Shown piece after piece: positions 1 through 6,710 of a stretch of 6,921 nt of DNA. Each line of letters starts with the position of its first letter. Positions within the stretch are counted from its first letter, which is position 1. The notes under the pieces were generated by a model. It was given only the letters and a program-made list of their open reading frames with translations. It was not told the origin of the DNA and did not search any database. The stretch comes from JALSIF01 sp026981635 [NCBI: bacterium] (GTDB lineage Bacteria > 4484-113 > JALSIF01), in NCBI GenBank assembly GCA_026981635.1, contig JALSIF010000005.1:1-6921 (forward strand), written 5' to 3'. The position numbers were made by a program, and so were the translations under genes.

Positions 1-506
1 ACATAGAGGGGGCTTAGGGGCGGCGGGTAGACCACCGCCTTCTCCCGCCTAAAGGAGAAGCGCTCCATAAGTGCCCTCAGGGTGCGGCGGGAATCGCACA
101 GGATGAGGTCGGCCCTTTCAAGCGCGGGGGGCATGAAGGTCCGATAGAGGGTGCGGGCGCGCCAGGAGATGGAGTTGGGAGCCTCCCAGGGAACCAGGTC
201 GTGGACCACCACCGCACACCTGGTGCGCAGGCGGAGGGGGAGGGTAAAGTCAGCGCCCAGGTAGAGCCCGGGTCTAAGTCTTCCTACCACCTGGGGAATG
301 ACTGCCTGCTCAAGGAGGGTGCGGTTGAGGAATGGAAGGGGGAGGCTGTGCTGAATGATCCCCTCTGGCAGGGTGGGGTCGGGTGAACGGACCAGGGTGT
401 GGACCTCAAAGCCCCCCCCTCTCACCAGAGCGTGGAGGAGGGAGCGGGTGTAGCGGCCGATCCCCCAGCGGTTGGTCAGCGGAAGACCGGTCACTACAAT
501 ACGCAC
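1..506 (-). CDS. Glycosyltransferase, GT4-like (GT-B fold), N-terminal part only
   Basis: The reverse strand reads open from a GTG at 506 to the window edge, giving 168 codons of an incomplete protein (C-terminus missing). The start reads VRIVVTGLPL, a first Rossmann strand. It is followed by the GIGRYTRSLL loop and helix (residues 15-24) typical of GT4 donor/acceptor-site loops. Residues about 98-140 contain AVVVHDLVPW and then ALERADLILCDSRRTLRAL, the usual 'HD..' and 'AD.I...S..' pattern of GT4 N-domains. Family members move a sugar from an NDP-sugar onto a lipid-linked or polysaccharide acceptor at the inner membrane face. The C-terminal nucleotide-sugar site (E-x7-E region) lies outside the window, so substrate and linkage cannot be given. 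No Shine-Dalgarno precedes the GTG, but GATAAT ends 7 bases before it, suggesting a leaderless mRNA. The frame stays open upstream with no better start codon. Family assignment is fairly sure; the exact start is less so. Confidence 0.8.
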   Translation of the reverse strand, partial: MRIVVTGLPLTNRWGIGRYTRSLLHALVRGGGFEVHTLVRSPDPTLPEGIIQHSLPLPFLNRTLLEQAVIPQVVGRLRPGLYLGADFTLPLRLRTRCAVVVHDLVPWEAPNSISWRARTLYRTFMPPALERADLILCDSRRTLRALMERFSFRREKAVVYPPPLSPLY

Positions 507-551: not shown

Positions 552-1985
552 GTGCCAAATTCAAGGAAGGCCCTGTTTCTGGCGGTGGTGATCGCTCTGG
601 GAAGCTGGCTCATGGCTTACCCATCCGGGGTGGCAGAGGAGGCAGAGAGTCAGGCCAGGGAGAGTAAAGCGACGGCAGAGCAGGGAGTGGTGGAGCTAAG
701 CCTGGAGGAAGCCATCCAGACCGCCCTGGAGAAGAACCTGGCCCTGGCCCAGGCCCGCCACGGAGCACGGGCGGTCCTCTTCCAGGAGCGGGCTATCCGG
801 GCCGCCCTGATGCCCAAGCTTGACCTGGAGAACATGAGCTCCATCGTGGACGATTCCAACCTGGACATCCCCCCATTCCTGCAGGCCCAGGGGGGAGGTG
901 GCCAGATCTTTGGTCAGGACAAGTACACCCGGCTGACCACCCTAAGCCTCACCCAACCCATCTCCTTCACCCTGCCCAAGGTCCTAAGCTCCCTCAGCCA
1001 CGCCCGGCGGGCGGCAGACCTTCAGGTCTCAGCCCTGGAGGACCAGATCCGCTTCGCCACCACCCAGGCCTACCTCATGGCCCTGCTGGCCGAAGAGAAG
1101 CTTAGGGTGGCAGAGGAGGGGCTCAGGCTGGCGGAGAAGCTCAGGCGGGCGGCCAAGGTGCGCTATGAGGTGGGAACGGCGCCCCGCTTTGACCTCATCC
1201 AGGCCGAGGTGGGGGTGGCCAACGCCCGCCAGGAGCTGGAAAAGGCAAGGGCGGAGCGGGAGCGGGCGCTTAGGAACCTGCTTCTGGTGATGGGGGTAGA
1301 GGGAGTCAGTGCCGACCACCTGAGGCTCAGCCAGCGCCCCCTGGAAGATGAGGGCGGCCTGGCCGACGGTTTCAGGCCGGACGACCTTCCCGGCTATCCC
1401 GACCGCTACCTAGCCCTGAATGCCACCTACCTGGCCTTGCGGGAGACGGCCAAGGCGGCCCGCATCAAGGCGGGGGCACTGAGGCTTATCCCCGAGTTTG
1501 CCCTCATCGCCAGCGCGCGGGACATGGACCAGAGCCCCTTCCAGAGCGGGGAGATCTACTCCCTAGGGCTTTCGGCCCGCTGGCGCATCTTTGACTCAGG
1601 GGAGGTGAGGAGCAAGCGCCTCAGCGCCCGAGAGGAGGCGGCGGCGGCCCAGGCCAAGGCGGAGGAGTTTCGCCGCAACCTCCGCGAGGACCTTATCTGG
1701 GCCGCCGACCAGGTTCGGGTGAGCCGGCTAAATCTCGCCACCGCCAAGGAGGCCCTTCGGCAGGCCAGGGAGGCCCTGCGCATGGCCGAGCTGGGCTACC
1801 GGGAGGGAGAGACCAGCATGATTGAGTACGACCAGGCAAAGGTGGCCTACCTCTCTGCCCAGGTGAGGCTCTATGCCACCCGGGTTGAGCTGGCCCTGGC
1901 GGTGGAGCGGATAAGGAGCCTGATCGGCTACCGCAACCTGCCCCAGAAGGAGGAAGGGAGCGGGACGAAGACAGAGTCCGGCTAG
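552..1985 (+). CDS. TolC-family outer-membrane efflux protein
   Basis: From a GTG at 552 the product is 477 residues, about the usual length for the outer membrane efflux protein (OEP) family. I chose this start because GGGAGG at 539-544 lies 7 bases upstream. In-frame starts at 531, 537 and 546 are possible but have poor or no spacing to a ribosome site. A signal peptide is visible: basic NSRK, hydrophobic ALFLAVVIALGSWLMA, then a small-residue stretch near residues 22-29. The two OEP repeats follow. The first opens with LSLEEAIQTALEKN (about 49-62) and has long charged Ala/Leu/Arg/Glu helices (about 155-250). The second begins around residue 285 and ends with helices holding LGYREGETSMIEYDQAKVAYL. 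Such proteins trimerise into a periplasm-spanning exit duct for RND, ABC or MFS pumps. No pump or adaptor gene is adjacent, so the cargo is unknown. A short Gly run (about 114-117) sits where a beta hairpin is expected. Confidence 0.9.
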   Translation: MPNSRKALFLAVVIALGSWLMAYPSGVAEEAESQARESKATAEQGVVELSLEEAIQTALEKNLALAQARHGARAVLFQERAIRAALMPKLDLENMSSIVDDSNLDIPPFLQAQGGGGQIFGQDKYTRLTTLSLTQPISFTLPKVLSSLSHARRAADLQVSALEDQIRFATTQAYLMALLAEEKLRVAEEGLRLAEKLRRAAKVRYEVGTAPRFDLIQAEVGVANARQELEKARAERERALRNLLLVMGVEGVSADHLRLSQRPLEDEGGLADGFRPDDLPGYPDRYLALNATYLALRETAKAARIKAGALRLIPEFALIASARDMDQSPFQSGEIYSLGLSARWRIFDSGEVRSKRLSAREEAAAAQAKAEEFRRNLREDLIWAADQVRVSRLNLATAKEALRQAREALRMAELGYREGETSMIEYDQAKVAYLSAQVRLYATRVELALAVERIRSLIGYRNLPQKEEGSGTKTESG

Positions 1986-3970
1986 CTCCGGCGGGCACCC
2001 CTTCCCCGCCCCCGGCTGAGGGCGAAGAGCAGGGCCTGAAGGTCGGCCGGATCCACCCCGGGGATGCGGCCCGCCTGGCCCAGGGTCTCAGGCCTGACCT
2101 TGGAAAGTTTCTCCTTGGCCTCGGCGGAGAGGCTCTCCACCTGGTCAAAGTCAAAGTCAGGCGGGATCCTCACCGCCTCGCTCTCCCTCAGCTGCTCAAC
2201 CTCCCGAAGCTGGCGCTCCAGGTAGCCCCGGTAGCGGGCCTCAATCTCCACCTGCTCCACCGCCAGGGGGTCCAGGCTGTCCATGAGGTAGAGCAGCTCC
2301 TCGCTCATCACCGGCCGAAGGCGCTCCAGGGTGGTGGCGGGAAACTGGAGGGCCTCCAAGACGCTGCGGGGCTCTCCGGCGGGGAGCCCCGCCTGGGCAA
2401 GCTGTTCGCGGGAGAGGCGCTCGCGCCCGAGGGCCTCCCGAAGCTCCTCCACCTGGGAGAGCACCTCCCTGGCCCGGCGCCACTTGGCCTCCGGCAGCAG
2501 GCCGGCCCGGTGGGCGATCTCGGAGAGGCGAGTAAGGGCGTTGTCAAACCGGCAGAGGAGGCGAAACTCACAGCGGGCGGTAAACATCCGGTAGGGGTCG
2601 GTCACCCCCTTGGTGGTGAGGTCATCAATCAGGGTGCCGATGTAGCCGGTCTCCCGGGTAAGTGGGAGGGGCTCCCTGCCCGCCAGGGTGAGGGCGGCGT
2701 TGGCACCCGCCACCAACCCCTGGGCACCTGCCTCCTCGTAGCCGGTGGTGCCGCAGAGGTTCCCCGCCATGAAGAGGCCGGCCACCAGCTCTGACTCCAG
2801 GGCGCGGGTGAGGTGGATGGGGTTGTGGACGCTGTACTCCACCGCATAGCCGGGGCGGACGATGTGGGCCCGCTCAAGGCCCGGTATGGTGGCAAGCATC
2901 TGGTACTGCACCTCCAGGGGCAGGGAGGTGGAGAGACCCTGGAGATAGATCTCGGTGGTGGCAAGGCCGTCCGGCTCAACGAAGATGGGGTGGTGGAGGT
3001 TTTGGGGGAAGCGCTTCACCTTGTCCTCAATGGAGGGGCAGTAGCGGGGCCCGGGGCCGGCGATGAGGCCGGCAAAGAGAGCGCTCCGCTCAAGGTTTTT
3101 GCGCAGCACCGCGATGGTCTCGGGGCGGGTACGGGTGATCCAGCAGGGAAGCTGGAGGCCGCCACCCCCTTCCAGGGGCTTAAAACTTGAGAAGCCGTAG
3201 CGGTAGGGGCGGGAGAGCTGAACCTCCAGGCGGGAGAAGTCCACCGTGCGCCCGTCCAGGCGGGGGCTGGTGCCGGTCTTTAGGCGGATGAAGCGAAGGC
3301 CAAGCTTCCTCAGGTTCTCCTCCAGGGCCATGCTTGCCGGCTCGCCCATCCGCCCGCCGGGGAGGGTGGTCTCGCCGATGAAGAGGCGGCCGCCCAGGAA
3401 GGTGCCGGTGCAGAGGACCACCCGGGGGGCCAGGATCACCTCACCGGTGGAAAGCCTTACCCCCCGCACATAGAGGGGCTGGCGGAAGTGGGTGGGGCGC
3501 TCCCGCTGTTTCTGCCAGGGGAGACTGCGGGGAGAGCGGCCGGGGCGCTCGGCAAGCTCCTCCTCGGGGGCAGTTTCAAACTCACCCACCAGAAGCTCCA
3601 CCACCTCACCCTGGTAGAGGCTGAGATGGGGGGTCTGCTCCAGGCGCTGCTTCATGAGCAGGGAGTAGCGGGCCCGGTCGGACTGGCTACGCAGGGCCTG
3701 CACGGCGGGGCCGCGGCCGGTGTTGAGCATGCGGAAGTTGACTGCCGCCCGGTCGGTTATCTCTCCCATCGCCCCGCCCAGGGCGTCTATCTCCCGGATG
3801 AGGTGGCCCTTGGCCGGGCCCCCCATGCTGGGGTTGCAGCTCATGCGGGCGATGGCGTCAAGCTGGAGGGTGATGAGCAGGGTTTCCATGCCCAGCCGGG
3901 CGGCAGCCAGGGCGGCCTCGCAGCCGGCATGGCCCCCACCCACCACGATGACGTCGTAGCGCTGCCACAT
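1982..3970 (-). CDS. mnmG: tRNA uridine-5-carboxymethylaminomethyl modification enzyme MnmG (GidA)
   Basis: MnmG, with MnmE, installs the (carboxymethyl)aminomethyl group on wobble U34 of certain tRNAs, using FAD, NADH, methylene-tetrahydrofolate and glycine or ammonium. The 662-residue product begins MWQRYDVIVVGGGHAGCEA, the FAD-binding Rossmann motif (GGGHAG at 11-16). SCNPSMGGPAKGHL (44-57) holds Cys45, matching E. coli Cys47. PRYCPSIEDKVKRF (308-321) holds Cys311, matching Cys277. GTTGYEEAGAQG (407-418) is the second signature, and the C-terminal helical domain ends in GRIPGVDPADLQALL. It is longer than the usual 620-630 residues, mainly through an Arg/Pro/Glu-rich insert at about 133-166. 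The C-terminus is a basic tail, SRGRGRGARRS. No Shine-Dalgarno precedes the ATG; TAGACT (3980-3985 on this strand) lies 9 bases before it. mnmE and rsmG, frequent neighbours elsewhere, are not here. The stop shares a CTAG with the convergent TolC-family gene. Confidence 0.97.
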   Translation of the reverse strand: MWQRYDVIVVGGGHAGCEAALAAARLGMETLLITLQLDAIARMSCNPSMGGPAKGHLIREIDALGGAMGEITDRAAVNFRMLNTGRGPAVQALRSQSDRARYSLLMKQRLEQTPHLSLYQGEVVELLVGEFETAPEEELAERPGRSPRSLPWQKQRERPTHFRQPLYVRGVRLSTGEVILAPRVVLCTGTFLGGRLFIGETTLPGGRMGEPASMALEENLRKLGLRFIRLKTGTSPRLDGRTVDFSRLEVQLSRPYRYGFSSFKPLEGGGGLQLPCWITRTRPETIAVLRKNLERSALFAGLIAGPGPRYCPSIEDKVKRFPQNLHHPIFVEPDGLATTEIYLQGLSTSLPLEVQYQMLATIPGLERAHIVRPGYAVEYSVHNPIHLTRALESELVAGLFMAGNLCGTTGYEEAGAQGLVAGANAALTLAGREPLPLTRETGYIGTLIDDLTTKGVTDPYRMFTARCEFRLLCRFDNALTRLSEIAHRAGLLPEAKWRRAREVLSQVEELREALGRERLSREQLAQAGLPAGEPRSVLEALQFPATTLERLRPVMSEELLYLMDSLDPLAVEQVEIEARYRGYLERQLREVEQLRESEAVRIPPDFDFDQVESLSAEAKEKLSKVRPETLGQAGRIPGVDPADLQALLFALSRGRGRGARRS

Positions 3971-4014: not shown

Positions 4015-5172
4015 CTACCAGCGGAGGAAACCGCTTATGGTCAGGCGGTAGTCCCGCTCAAGCTGGGGGCCGTGGAGGTTCTGGTAGAGGGGAAGCCTGA
4101 TCCCCAGGGCTATCCCCTGGTTCCTCCCCATCCCGGGACGGGAGCTGAGGGAGAGATCCAGCCCCAGGTCCAGCCGGGTCCCCCCCTGGATGTGGGGACC
4201 GGCGGTGGGCACCAGAGAGGGATTGAGCTCCGGGTCCCTTCCCCGGATGTCCTTCCACCCCTCCCCCGCCAGGGAGAGCCTGAGGTGGGCCTTTCTCCCC
4301 AGCGGGTAGCGCTTCCAGAGCTCGGCGCTGAGCTCGTTTCCCAGCCGGTAGCCGCTGGAGTTTCTCCCCGTGCGCAGTACCCCCTCCAGCCCAAAACCCC
4401 AGCGGGATCTCCCTTGGAGGTACTCCCGCTGGTAGCCGAGGACCAGGTCCCAGGTCCCCGAGCCAAGCTGCATGGCGTAGGGGAGCTTGGCGCTCTCATT
4501 CATGGGAGTCCGGCCCCGCTTGCTCACCGAGCCGGTGGGGATGCTTATCCCCAGGCGGTAGCGGGGACCGGGGGCCATGTGACCGCGGGGGGAGTGCTGC
4601 CAGAGGAGCAGGAGGTCTCCCAGGCCCCGGGAGCGGGTGACGAACCTGGTCCCCATGCGGGTGCGGTGGCGCATGCTGAGGCTCTTGTAGGAGCCCATCA
4701 GCATGAACATCTCCCTCTCCCCCGCCATGTACATGAGCTCAACCATGTGGGCCTGCATGGACATCTGCTCGGGGGTAACGGGGAAACTTTCCAGCACCTC
4801 CTCCACCGAGCGCCGGGAGCGACCCTGGCGCAGCCCCTCCATCCCCATCTGGCCGAAGCGGTAGCGGAGCATGAGGCGGTGGCGGCGCATCCCCATCTCC
4901 ATCCCCATGGGGTGGGCCATGGGCTCTTCGCTCGGGGCCGGCTGGGCACTGGTGGCAAGTCCGGTCAGTCCAGCCAGGATTAGAAAGCCGCCCCCTTCCC
5001 CACGCCAGGAGGCAGAAAGCAGGCCGCCCACAGAAAAATCAGCCCCCGCAAAGGGAGGCGAAGGGGACGGGTGCCAGGCCCCCGCCGGCGAAAGGAAAGG
5101 CCCCTGAGAGAGGAGGAGGGCCAGGGTGAGCAACAGGAAATGCTTGGCGACCGGCTTAGCTGGATACCCCAT
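4015..5172 (-). CDS. Predicted Met-rich outer-membrane beta-barrel protein, 'transporter'/MetA-like (Phenol_MetA_deg-related) family
   Basis: The 385-residue product starts with a signal-like segment (HFLLLTLALLL, 11-21). A second hydrophobic stretch follows at 62-76 (GFLILAGLTGLATSA). The rest looks like a beta-barrel: alternating short strands, Gly/aromatic turns and a C-terminal strand ending in Trp, as in many BAM substrates. From memory of the family, KLPYAMQLGSGTWDL (229-243), ISIPTGS (209-215), RTRMGTRFVT and LPLYQNLHGPQLE (360-372) match proteobacterial proteins labelled 'transporter' and related to Pfam Phenol_MetA_deg. Their function is not established. Residues 85-173 contain 18 methionines, many spaced two apart, plus several His. 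An inverted repeat like a CsoR operator overlaps the start codon, so metal-dependent (perhaps copper) control is inferred. The ATG at 5172 has no Shine-Dalgarno and TATATT ends 9 bases upstream. No in-frame ATG or GTG upstream extends it. Family recognition is moderate; the function is unknown. Confidence 0.7.
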   Translation of the reverse strand: MGYPAKPVAKHFLLLTLALLLSQGPFLSPAGAWHPSPSPPFAGADFSVGGLLSASWRGEGGGFLILAGLTGLATSAQPAPSEEPMAHPMGMEMGMRRHRLMLRYRFGQMGMEGLRQGRSRRSVEEVLESFPVTPEQMSMQAHMVELMYMAGEREMFMLMGSYKSLSMRHRTRMGTRFVTRSRGLGDLLLLWQHSPRGHMAPGPRYRLGISIPTGSVSKRGRTPMNESAKLPYAMQLGSGTWDLVLGYQREYLQGRSRWGFGLEGVLRTGRNSSGYRLGNELSAELWKRYPLGRKAHLRLSLAGEGWKDIRGRDPELNPSLVPTAGPHIQGGTRLDLGLDLSLSSRPGMGRNQGIALGIRLPLYQNLHGPQLERDYRLTISGFLRW

Positions 5173-5180
5173 AGGGGTAT
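5164..5180. promoter_or_regulatory. Candidate CsoR-family repressor operator
   Basis: The bases ATACCCCATAGGGGTAT form a perfect inverted repeat with 7-bp arms and a 3-bp centre. A C-tract and a G-tract flanked by AT-rich ends is the form reported for CsoR-family operators (CsoR for copper, with relatives responding to nickel/cobalt or persulfide). It covers the ATG of the Met-rich barrel gene and lies just downstream of TATATT (5182-5187 on the minus strand). A bound repressor would therefore block promoter clearance. No CsoR-like gene is in the window; assignment is by pattern only. Confidence 0.5.
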
Positions 5181-5181
5181 G

Positions 5182-5187
5182 AATATA
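5182..5187 (-). promoter_or_regulatory. Candidate -10 box of the Met-rich barrel gene
   Basis: TATATT on the minus strand matches TATAAT at 5 of 6 positions and ends 9 bases before the ATG. The predicted transcript start falls within a few bases of the start codon, giving a leaderless or nearly leaderless mRNA. There is no convincing -35 hexamer. It gives the barrel gene a promoter separate from that of the upstream lyase gene, which ends only 40 bases away. Confidence 0.35.
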
Positions 5188-5212
5188 CCAGCTTTGAGCT
5201 AACCCTTTTCCC

Positions 5213-6646
5213 TCAGAGGTCCTCCTTGGTGATGAAGCCGGGTCTGGTCAGGCGGTCGGGGGTAAAGATCTTCCTTACCTGTTCCTCGGTAAGCACCCCC
5301 TCCTCCACCACTTCTCGCAGGATGGGCTTGCCCTTGGCCAGGGCCTGCTTTACGATGCGGGCGGCCTGGTTGTAGCCGATGAGGGGATTTAGCACGGTGG
5401 CCAGGGAGAGGCTGGACTCAAAGAAGTGGCGGCAGCGCTCCTGGTTCGCCCTAATGCCCCGGACGCAGCGCTCGGTGAAGGCGGTGATGGCGTTGGTGAG
5501 GATCTTTAGCATGTGGGTAAGGTTAAATCCCACCACCGGCATCATCACATTGAGCTGGTGCTCGCCAGCGGTGGTGCAGTAGTCCACCGTGGTAGCTAGC
5601 CCAACCACCTGGAAGCAGACCTGGTTTAGCATCTCCACCATGGAGGGGTTGATCTTGCCCGGCATGATGGAGCTTCCCGGCTGGACGGTGGGCAGGACGA
5701 TCTCGTAGATCCCCGAGGTGGGGCCGGCGTTCATGTGGCGAAGGTCAATGCCAATTTTCAGCAGGTCCAGCGCCAAACAGCGGAGGGCGGCGGCAAACTC
5801 GGCAAAGTCGTGGATGTTATGGGCGATCTCAATGTAGTTTCGGGCTGGCTTCAGGTCCAGGCCGGTAAGTTCGGCAAGTTTCAGGGCTACCCGCTCGCGG
5901 TAGTCGGGGTGGGTGTTTAGGCCGGTGCCCACCGCCGTCCCGCCCAGGTTGAGGTGGTAGAGCTCCCCGCTTGCCCGGACGAGGCGCTGTCTGGCCTTCT
6001 CCACCGTGTCGGCAAAGGCGGTAAAGACCTGGCCCAGGGTGATGGGGGTGGCGTCCTGGTTGTGGGTGCGGCCGGTGGTGATCACCTGGGCAAACTCCTC
6101 CCCCTTCTCCCCCAGGGCCTGGATGAGGCTGTCCAGGGAGCTGAGCAGGGCGGGCAGCATCCTGAGGCAGGTTAGGCGGATGGCGGTGGGGAAGGTGTCG
6201 TTGGTGGACTGGGCCATGTTGACGTGGTCGTTGGGGTGGACCAGGGGGTAGGTGCCCCGCTCGGGGTGGCCGGCAATCTCGTTTGCCCGGTTGGCAATCA
6301 CTTCGTTGGTGTTCATGTTGAAGCTGGTGCCGGCCCCCGCCTGGTAGACGTCCACCACCCACTGGTCAAGGAACTTTCCGGCGAGCACCTCGTCGCAGGC
6401 CGCAACGATGGCGTCCCGCTGCTCCTCGGATAGCATCCCCAGCTCGCAGTTGACCAGGGCGGCGGCTTTCTTGATGAGCACGTAGCTTTCAATGAAGACC
6501 CGGTCTATTACCAGCCCGCTGATGGGGAAGTTTTCCCTTGCCCGCTGGGTCTGGGCACCGTAGTAGGCCTCCTTGGGGACCTTGACCTCGCCCAGGGAGT
6601 CGCGCTCAATGCGATAGTTGCCTTCTTCACCCTGAACCTGGTTCAC
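5213..6646 (-). CDS. Class II fumarase/aspartase-family lyase (aspartate ammonia-lyase or fumarate hydratase)
   Basis: The product from GTG 6646 is 477 residues. I chose this start because GGGAGG (6655-6660) lies 8 bases upstream and homologues begin close to YRIERDSLGEVKVP (11-24). A GTG at 6691 would add 15 atypical residues. Visible family motifs are GAGTSFNMNTNEVIANR (104-120), HPNDHVNMAQSTNDTFPTA (137-155), TGRTHNQDATPITLGQ (191-206) and the superfamily signature GSSIMPGKINP (324-334), whose serine loop holds the catalytic base. The enzyme either deaminates aspartate to fumarate or interconverts fumarate and malate, as a cytosolic homotetramer. Evidence is mixed: DTFPTA, GRTH..DATP and GGTAVGTGLNTHP look fumarase-like. 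QAGAGTS, NPSMVEMLNQVCFQV, REVVEEGVLTEEQ and TRPGF look aspartase-like. I lean slightly to aspartase. The superfamily is certain; the substrate is not. Confidence 0.93.
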   Translation of the reverse strand: MNQVQGEEGNYRIERDSLGEVKVPKEAYYGAQTQRARENFPISGLVIDRVFIESYVLIKKAAALVNCELGMLSEEQRDAIVAACDEVLAGKFLDQWVVDVYQAGAGTSFNMNTNEVIANRANEIAGHPERGTYPLVHPNDHVNMAQSTNDTFPTAIRLTCLRMLPALLSSLDSLIQALGEKGEEFAQVITTGRTHNQDATPITLGQVFTAFADTVEKARQRLVRASGELYHLNLGGTAVGTGLNTHPDYRERVALKLAELTGLDLKPARNYIEIAHNIHDFAEFAAALRCLALDLLKIGIDLRHMNAGPTSGIYEIVLPTVQPGSSIMPGKINPSMVEMLNQVCFQVVGLATTVDYCTTAGEHQLNVMMPVVGFNLTHMLKILTNAITAFTERCVRGIRANQERCRHFFESSLSLATVLNPLIGYNQAARIVKQALAKGKPILREVVEEGVLTEEQVRKIFTPDRLTRPGFITKEDL

Positions 6647-6654
6647 CTTGCCTT

Positions 6655-6683
6655 CCTCCCTTGGTTTGAGTGGCCCAATTCTA
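6655..6683 (-). promoter_or_regulatory. Candidate -10 box and Shine-Dalgarno site for the lyase gene
   Basis: On the minus strand, TAGAAT (6678-6683) matches TATAAT at 5 of 6 positions. It would start transcription near 6671, giving a leader of about 25 bases. GGGAGG (6655-6660) in that leader sits 8 bases before GTG 6646. This supports that start over the GTG at 6691, which lies upstream of the predicted transcript start. No clear -35 hexamer is present. Confidence 0.4.
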
Positions 6684-6710
6684 GTCCCCACTGGAGCATC
6701 CTCCGGCGCC

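Follow-up and report, generated by a model that had tools for sequence, protein, structure and literature searches.

RicR of Mycobacterium tuberculosis, a CsoR paralogue, commands several dispersed copper genes for secreted and envelope proteins. The described operators closest to the one considered here are those of Streptomyces lividans and of the csoR-cueA divergon of Bradyrhizobium. Excerpts of PMC3902906 describe the CsoR type 2 operator of S. lividans as two short G/C tracts with an inner spacer and an outer TAC/GTA inverted repeat whose halves lie 9 bp apart. The consensus is given there as ATATACCCCTNAGGGGTATAT, with an N5 spacer and a TACX9GTA dyad, and mutation of the dyad renders binding no longer detectable. 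At cueA and at a leaderless csoR of Bradyrhizobium, the CsoR-box, TATACCCCTACCGGGTATA, overlaps the -10 element, according to excerpts of PMC5057107. In Mesorhizobium, the CsoR/RcnR-family repressor NreA acts on the leaderless promoter of nreAXY (PMC12724321, in excerpt). This system is like the present locus in its repressor family, compact promoter and leaderless mRNA, and differs in responding to nickel and in having a type 1 operator inside the -35/-10 spacer. At the outer membrane, the closest described proteins are PcoB and CopB, 12-strand barrels from a copper context, most homologues of which have a Met/His-rich N-terminal domain (PMC12509749, PMC9210255, both in excerpt).

The window, by which we mean the whole stretch of 6,921 nucleotides that was analysed, contains at 5164-5180 the inverted repeat ATACCCC-ATA-GGGGTAT (ATACCCCATAGGGGTAT), with perfect 7-bp arms and a 3-bp spacer. 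As the sequence-only reading had described, it spans the ATG (5172-5170, minus strand) of a gene for an outer-membrane barrel. When matched on both strands with up to three mismatches, the 17-bp repeat is unique in the window, and 0.02 such matches are expected in a shuffled window. Positions 5165-5179 read TAC-CCCATAGGG-GTA, which is the TAC-X9-GTA layout published for type 2 operators (PMC3902906, in excerpt). We therefore annotate 5164-5180, without a strand, as a candidate CsoR type 2 operator. The earlier proposal that the repeat is a CsoR-like operator is supported by this layout and by its recurrence at metal genes across the genome. The TAC-C tract/G tract-GTA order, the N5 spacer and the AT flanks are shared with the S. 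lividans and Bradyrhizobium sites (PMC3902906, PMC5057107); there, as in the present genome, such sites occur at the promoters of copper ATPases and of csoR. The targets named in the excerpts of these two papers are copZA, csoR and cueA, whereas here outer-membrane and cytochrome genes are also preceded by the repeat, and the window site covers a start codon, unlike the sites described there.

The source genome, a fragmented assembly (1,745,230 bases in 317 contigs, 85% complete), was searched for further sites. The exact pattern ATACCC-N5-GGGTAT occurs nine times, against zero for the reversed-pattern control. With up to one mismatch the count is 17 against 2, with up to two mismatches 56 against 29, and the shorter core TACCC-N4/5-GGGTA gives 13 against 6. 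Judged by these control counts, sites are informative when exact or with one mismatch, and the looser ones are not. Since the control yields two matches at up to one mismatch, a few of the eight one-mismatch sites are perhaps due to chance. Eight of the nine exact sites fall outside open reading frames of at least 150 aa, as kept by a greedy caller; the ninth (C292) lies within a 152-aa frame antisense to a cupin-like gene. Nine draft genomes of the same class hold at most one N5-spaced site each, which counts against the proposed reading.

The exact sites precede the following genes (names in "-like" given in the absence of a family match are readings of the translations by eye). Apart from the window site on C5, which overlaps the start of the barrel gene, one site on C309 lies 36 nt before the gene for a P-type ATPase that carries four YHS domains, an HMBD and a CPC motif and scores 619.9 bits against the copper-translocating model TIGR01511 (cut-off 397). 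Others are found 46 nt before the gene for a 214-aa protein with 17.7% Met (C123), 45 nt before a cytochrome b-like gene whose downstream neighbour encodes a Met-rich secreted protein (C315), 76 nt before CcsB (over the TIGR03144 cut-off) and a ResB-like gene (C287), and 22 nt before a gene for a small membrane protein (C117:20254). The remaining three precede genes for secreted proteins that reach no family cut-off (C124 and C40) and a cut cupin-like gene (C292); none of these has a known copper role, which counts against a copper regulon.

Among the one-mismatch sites, that on C24 fronts a csoR gene of its own, ATCCCCTGGGGGGGTAT running into TGGTATATT and then ATG. The occurrence of the repeat ahead of known metal genes, anticipated by the sequence-only reading, is thus borne out both by this site and by the exact one at the copper-type ATPase. 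Further one-mismatch sites lie 119 nt before a Rieske-like protein gene (below cut-off and cut by the contig end) on C69, which also carries cytochrome b-like genes; 5 nt before the ATG for a 470-aa outer-membrane-like protein on C284 (L052:996-2430), possibly a second barrel; before DsbD, by Pfam (C25); before a rhodanese-like protein (C92); and at the start of a YncE-like propeller (C270). Those on C20 and at C117:11340 have no convincing target. No operator site was found on the contig of the C302 csoR gene or in the 168 bp that the contig holds upstream of a P-type ATPase gene on C293, and at a P-type ATPase gene on C67 we found only an unrelated TACC-N7-GGTA beyond the gene; these gaps, too, count against the proposed reading.

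Candidate repressors are present as well: four genes (on C302, C146, C24 and C33) match PF02583 over its curated cut-off, so that the homologues of csoR to be expected with such an operator do exist. The C302 and C24 products score 92.7 and 72.9 bits (cut-off 22.8) and, read by eye, carry the Cys-His-Cys ligand set (YC..EDHLRTC and KC..EEHLTTC) together with RLxR. The C302 product aligns to solved chains of InrS and CsoR, with a best E of 2.5e-13 to InrS. The putative regulon resembles that of RicR, where copper genes that encode secreted or envelope proteins likewise lie at several separate places; it differs in that the C302 product reaches 57.2 bits against the NCBIfam RicR model, below the cut-off of 175. 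The other two products deviate in their ligands, that of C146 having Cys-Tyr-Cys and that of C33 only the first Cys (read by eye). The C146 gene (L024:1162-1828) is followed directly by a small thioredoxin/glutaredoxin-like gene. Taken together, we consider it likely that the repeat is the operator of a copper-sensing CsoR-family repressor, blocked by the apo-form and freed by Cu(I), with a regulon of copper genes along with envelope and redox genes. Copper is favoured over nickel or sulfur because of the target genes and the ligand residues.

A different signal for the same type of regulator appears unlikely, but deserves weighing. The operator could be real and read by a CsoR-family protein that responds to persulfide, as in CstR-like proteins, or to another metal, the cytochromes, CcsB, DsbD and rhodanese then forming a sulfur/redox regulon. 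The presence of four paralogues, two of which (C146 and C33) are not of the copper type, fits this reading, as do the one-mismatch sites ahead of DsbD and the rhodanese-like gene and a closely related N4-spaced site on C33, TACCCCGTAGGGTA, 3 nt before a rhodanese/persulfide-dioxygenase-like gene. However, that sulfur gene has N4 spacing, whereas the copper ATPase and the Met-rich genes have N5. In addition, the csoR gene with an adjacent site (C24) encodes the Cys-His-Cys type and is followed by a gene whose product has an HMA domain and matches MerT below the cut-off, which again argues for copper.

The N4 spacing might possibly mark a separate sulfur circuit at C33, distinguished through its operator. 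Excerpts of PMC10318464 report that paralogues within one cell can read different operators, with which the N4 site on C33 is consistent. On the minus strand of that contig, at L020:5090-5105, the N4 site reads ATACCCTACGGGGTAT, and the same contig has the CsoR-family gene that lacks the second Cys. A genome of the same class (G005, L070-L081) displays 15 TACCC/GGGTA sites, 14 of them N4-spaced and one N5-spaced, against 3 for the control. In the 12 regions read, the genes close to its sites include disulfide reductase-like, superoxide dismutase-like and TlpA-like ones, and the set has the look of a separate CsoR/CstR-type regulon.

The arrangement around the start codon of the barrel gene places the repeat with respect to transcription. 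On the minus strand the order is TGG-TATATT-C-ATACCCCTATGGGGTAT, that is, TGG-TATATT-C-ATACCCC-TATG-GGGTAT. TATATT (5187-5182) directly precedes the repeat, as had been noted from the sequence, and with the upstream TGG forms a candidate extended -10 (TGGTATATT, 5182-5190, minus strand), a string found identically at the csoR gene of C24. The ATG falls on the spacer and the first G, in the middle of the palindrome. No -35 was found, and a strict two-hexamer scan for sigma-70 promoters in 5100-5300 was empty, so that the promoter call depends on the -10. Codon 1 is the only start that lies ahead of the entire first signal-peptide-like stretch (read by eye); in-frame alternatives are TTG at codon 14, GTG at codon 48 and ATG from codon 85 onward. 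Since only 9 nt separate TATATT from the ATG, the transcript is probably leaderless or near-leaderless. The Bradyrhizobium csoR and NreA promoters (PMC5057107, PMC12724321, in excerpt) are earlier examples of leaderless genes with an operator near the start codon.

This geometry also bears on the reading of the palindrome by an unrelated regulator, for instance a MerR-type activator bound in the -35/-10 spacer, which we find quite improbable. The closing GGGTAT of the repeat contributes to a -10-like hexamer at several sites, which would place the repeat in the spacer, and at C315 a TTGACA stands just upstream. Most other sites, however, have no matching -35 by eye, and the window repeat lies downstream of its -10. 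Published work also describes leaderless promoters whose CsoR/RcnR-family operator lies in the spacer or at the -10 (PMC12724321, PMC5057107, in excerpt).

It is very improbable that the repeat acts as an RNA hairpin with a 7-bp stem and the AUG at its loop, either controlling translation or terminating the upstream fumarase-type gene. The RNA fold has an energy of -13.1 kcal/mol and puts the AUG at the hairpin loop, but z is only -1.57 and 16 of 200 shuffles fold equally well, a weak result on which we rejected this candidate. The terminator scan of 5100-5300 was empty, the -10 is so near that the 5' arm is probably not transcribed whole, and elsewhere the motif lies at varying distances from start codons. 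A chance palindrome, in favour of which one could cite the lack of conservation at relatives, is hardly credible against an expectation of 0.02 in the window and nine exact genome sites versus none for the control, several of them at copper genes.

For the copper-responsive CsoR operator that we prefer, the following sequence of events can be envisaged. In the absence of excess Cu(I), apo-CsoR tetramers would occupy the repeat from just past the -10 to the start codon and, bound there, would directly block RNA polymerase or initiation at the barrel gene. Cytosolic Cu(I) would then bind the Cys-His-Cys site, upon which the repressor would leave and the (near-)leaderless barrel mRNA could be made. 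The same repressor would control the copper-type ATPase, the Met-rich secreted proteins, the cytochrome b-like gene and the genes for cytochrome c biogenesis, and probably also csoR on C24. The barrel would probably handle copper at the outer membrane, by chelation or passage, in a PcoB-like manner. This role, drawn by analogy to PcoB, is the least certain step of the scheme, with import, export and chelation all being candidates. That the barrel belongs to the copper response of the cell is probable, given that the same switch precedes a copper pump, Met-rich proteins and cytochrome genes.

The barrel protein itself (4015-5172, minus strand; 385 aa) starts with a signal-peptide-like stretch and contains 23 Met among its 385 residues, 16 of which are located within residues 83-165. 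It matches no Pfam family at E up to 1, no NCBIfam model at E up to 0.1 and no PDB sequence at E up to 1. A low-confidence structure model built from four sequences (mean pLDDT 59.3, pTM 0.59) adopts a beta-barrel with 12 long strands or strand pairs, counted by eye. Foldseek at E up to 0.001 relates this model to FapF, a COG4313 channel (4rl8 among the matches) and BamA, with a best E of 1.9e-6 and query TM values of only 0.36-0.40; VIA-align adds CymA with a Z of 17.7 and an rmsd of 3.4 over 249 residues. The Met count and the resemblance of the model to outer-membrane barrels agree with the description as a Met-rich outer-membrane barrel, with a fold like that of COG4313-type channels. A common barrel fold says nothing on function. 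The likeness to PF13557/COG4313 channels (Phenol_MetA_deg) extends to a relative in G017, which narrowly exceeds the PF13557 cut-off (22.5 against 22 bits); the window protein differs in having no Pfam match and in its Met-rich signature.

PcoB/CopB barrels may resemble the window barrel in the number of strands (12 in the excerpts of PMC12509749 and PMC9210255; 12 long strands or strand pairs, counted by eye, in the low-confidence model). They differ in that no sequence relation was found in the Pfam search, and in that the Met residues of the window barrel extend through the first strands. PcoB was absent among the matches listed in the Foldseek and VIA-align searches, which does not exclude PcoB. 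The other genes of the window (3-506, 531-1985, 1982-3970 and 5213-6691) encode a glycosyltransferase, a TolC-type efflux protein, an MnmG/GidA-like protein (by reading) and a fumarase-type lyase, none obviously copper-linked.

The barrel belongs to a family of Met-rich outer-membrane proteins. Its relatives occur in 2 of 97 genomes, its own included, at three named genome loci (42% identity at best), on five plasmids and, in another phylum, in 7 of 45 genomes, the query's own included; no copy was detectable in the nine draft genomes of the class. We viewed the neighbourhoods of 13 relatives, three of which are closely similar Ruegeria loci (the Ruegeria plasmid hit H4, G100 and G113 were left out). 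Explicit copper or heavy-metal genes are found in three: a multicopper oxidase, an HMA protein and a P-type ATPase in a Ruegeria locus (L054), a multicopper-oxidase/cytochrome c protein with FGE-like and SCO1 proteins (L093), and a CusB/HlyD-type efflux protein with an RND-like protein (L042). In the other ten no gene is explicit for copper. A ccm/DsbD block is common to two further Ruegeria loci (L053 and L056), in neither of which a gene explicit for copper is visible. L041 has a molybdopterin oxidoreductase nearby and L055 has genes for iron uptake, and nothing relevant was recognised in L091 and L043. The neighbourhood link of the family to copper is suggestive, within a wider redox and cytochrome theme. 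In the other phylum, the barrel gene adjoins a histidine kinase/response regulator pair that reads as RegB/RegA-like in four of six loci (L092, L094, L095 and L096), a hint that the family is regulated there in a redox-linked way.

The operator is not kept near the barrel genes of these relatives: at up to one mismatch it was found at the gene in none of the 13, searched over 400 bp upstream of 12 and across the entire locus of each of the 13. The one-mismatch matches in these loci number two (L043 and L056), both at a distance of over 3 kb from the gene, and no CueR-type box was found upstream of any of the 13 genes. Conservation of the repeat ahead of orthologues, which does not belong to the operator definition in the literature, is therefore not borne out, though the relatives are distant, and the operator set is to be taken as the regulon of one genome. 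The earlier suggestion of metal-controlled barrel expression is supported, with one of its three stated tests negative. The CsoR genes and the sites at metal genes speak for this control, predicted as it is from sequence, while the relatives lend it no support.

Operator and repressor are of an already known class; what is unusual and useful here is their target, a barrel as yet uncharacterised, within a regulon that spans the envelope. In the matches listed from a literature search on CsoR with outer-membrane, Met-rich or cytochrome c biogenesis targets, we recognised no CsoR-controlled outer-membrane barrel. A wider proposition is plausible but, in our judgement, rather short of probable. 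In this lineage a cytosolic CsoR-type sensor, and not an envelope two-component system, may serve as master switch for a copper programme throughout the envelope, with the outer-membrane Met-rich barrel, the periplasmic Met-rich proteins, the cytochrome b/Rieske genes, DsbD, system II cytochrome c biogenesis and the copper pump under its control. Some of the operators through which it acts would overlap or adjoin start codons of leaderless mRNAs, and the barrel family might form a new copper-handling outer-membrane class distinct from PcoB. The analysis gives a nameless outer-membrane barrel family a testable role in copper handling, through regulation and some gene neighbours. It also points to a CsoR regulon far wider than pump plus chaperone in a diderm bacterium, with copper sensing tied to the outer membrane and cytochrome assembly.

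The C309 locus shows a further feature. Divergent from the copper ATPase gene are an ArsR-type gene and one for another P-type ATPase. The arsR gene is preceded by a ATATGAGCAACTGCTCATAT repeat (L044:1025-1044) of a form typical of ArsR/SmtB operators.
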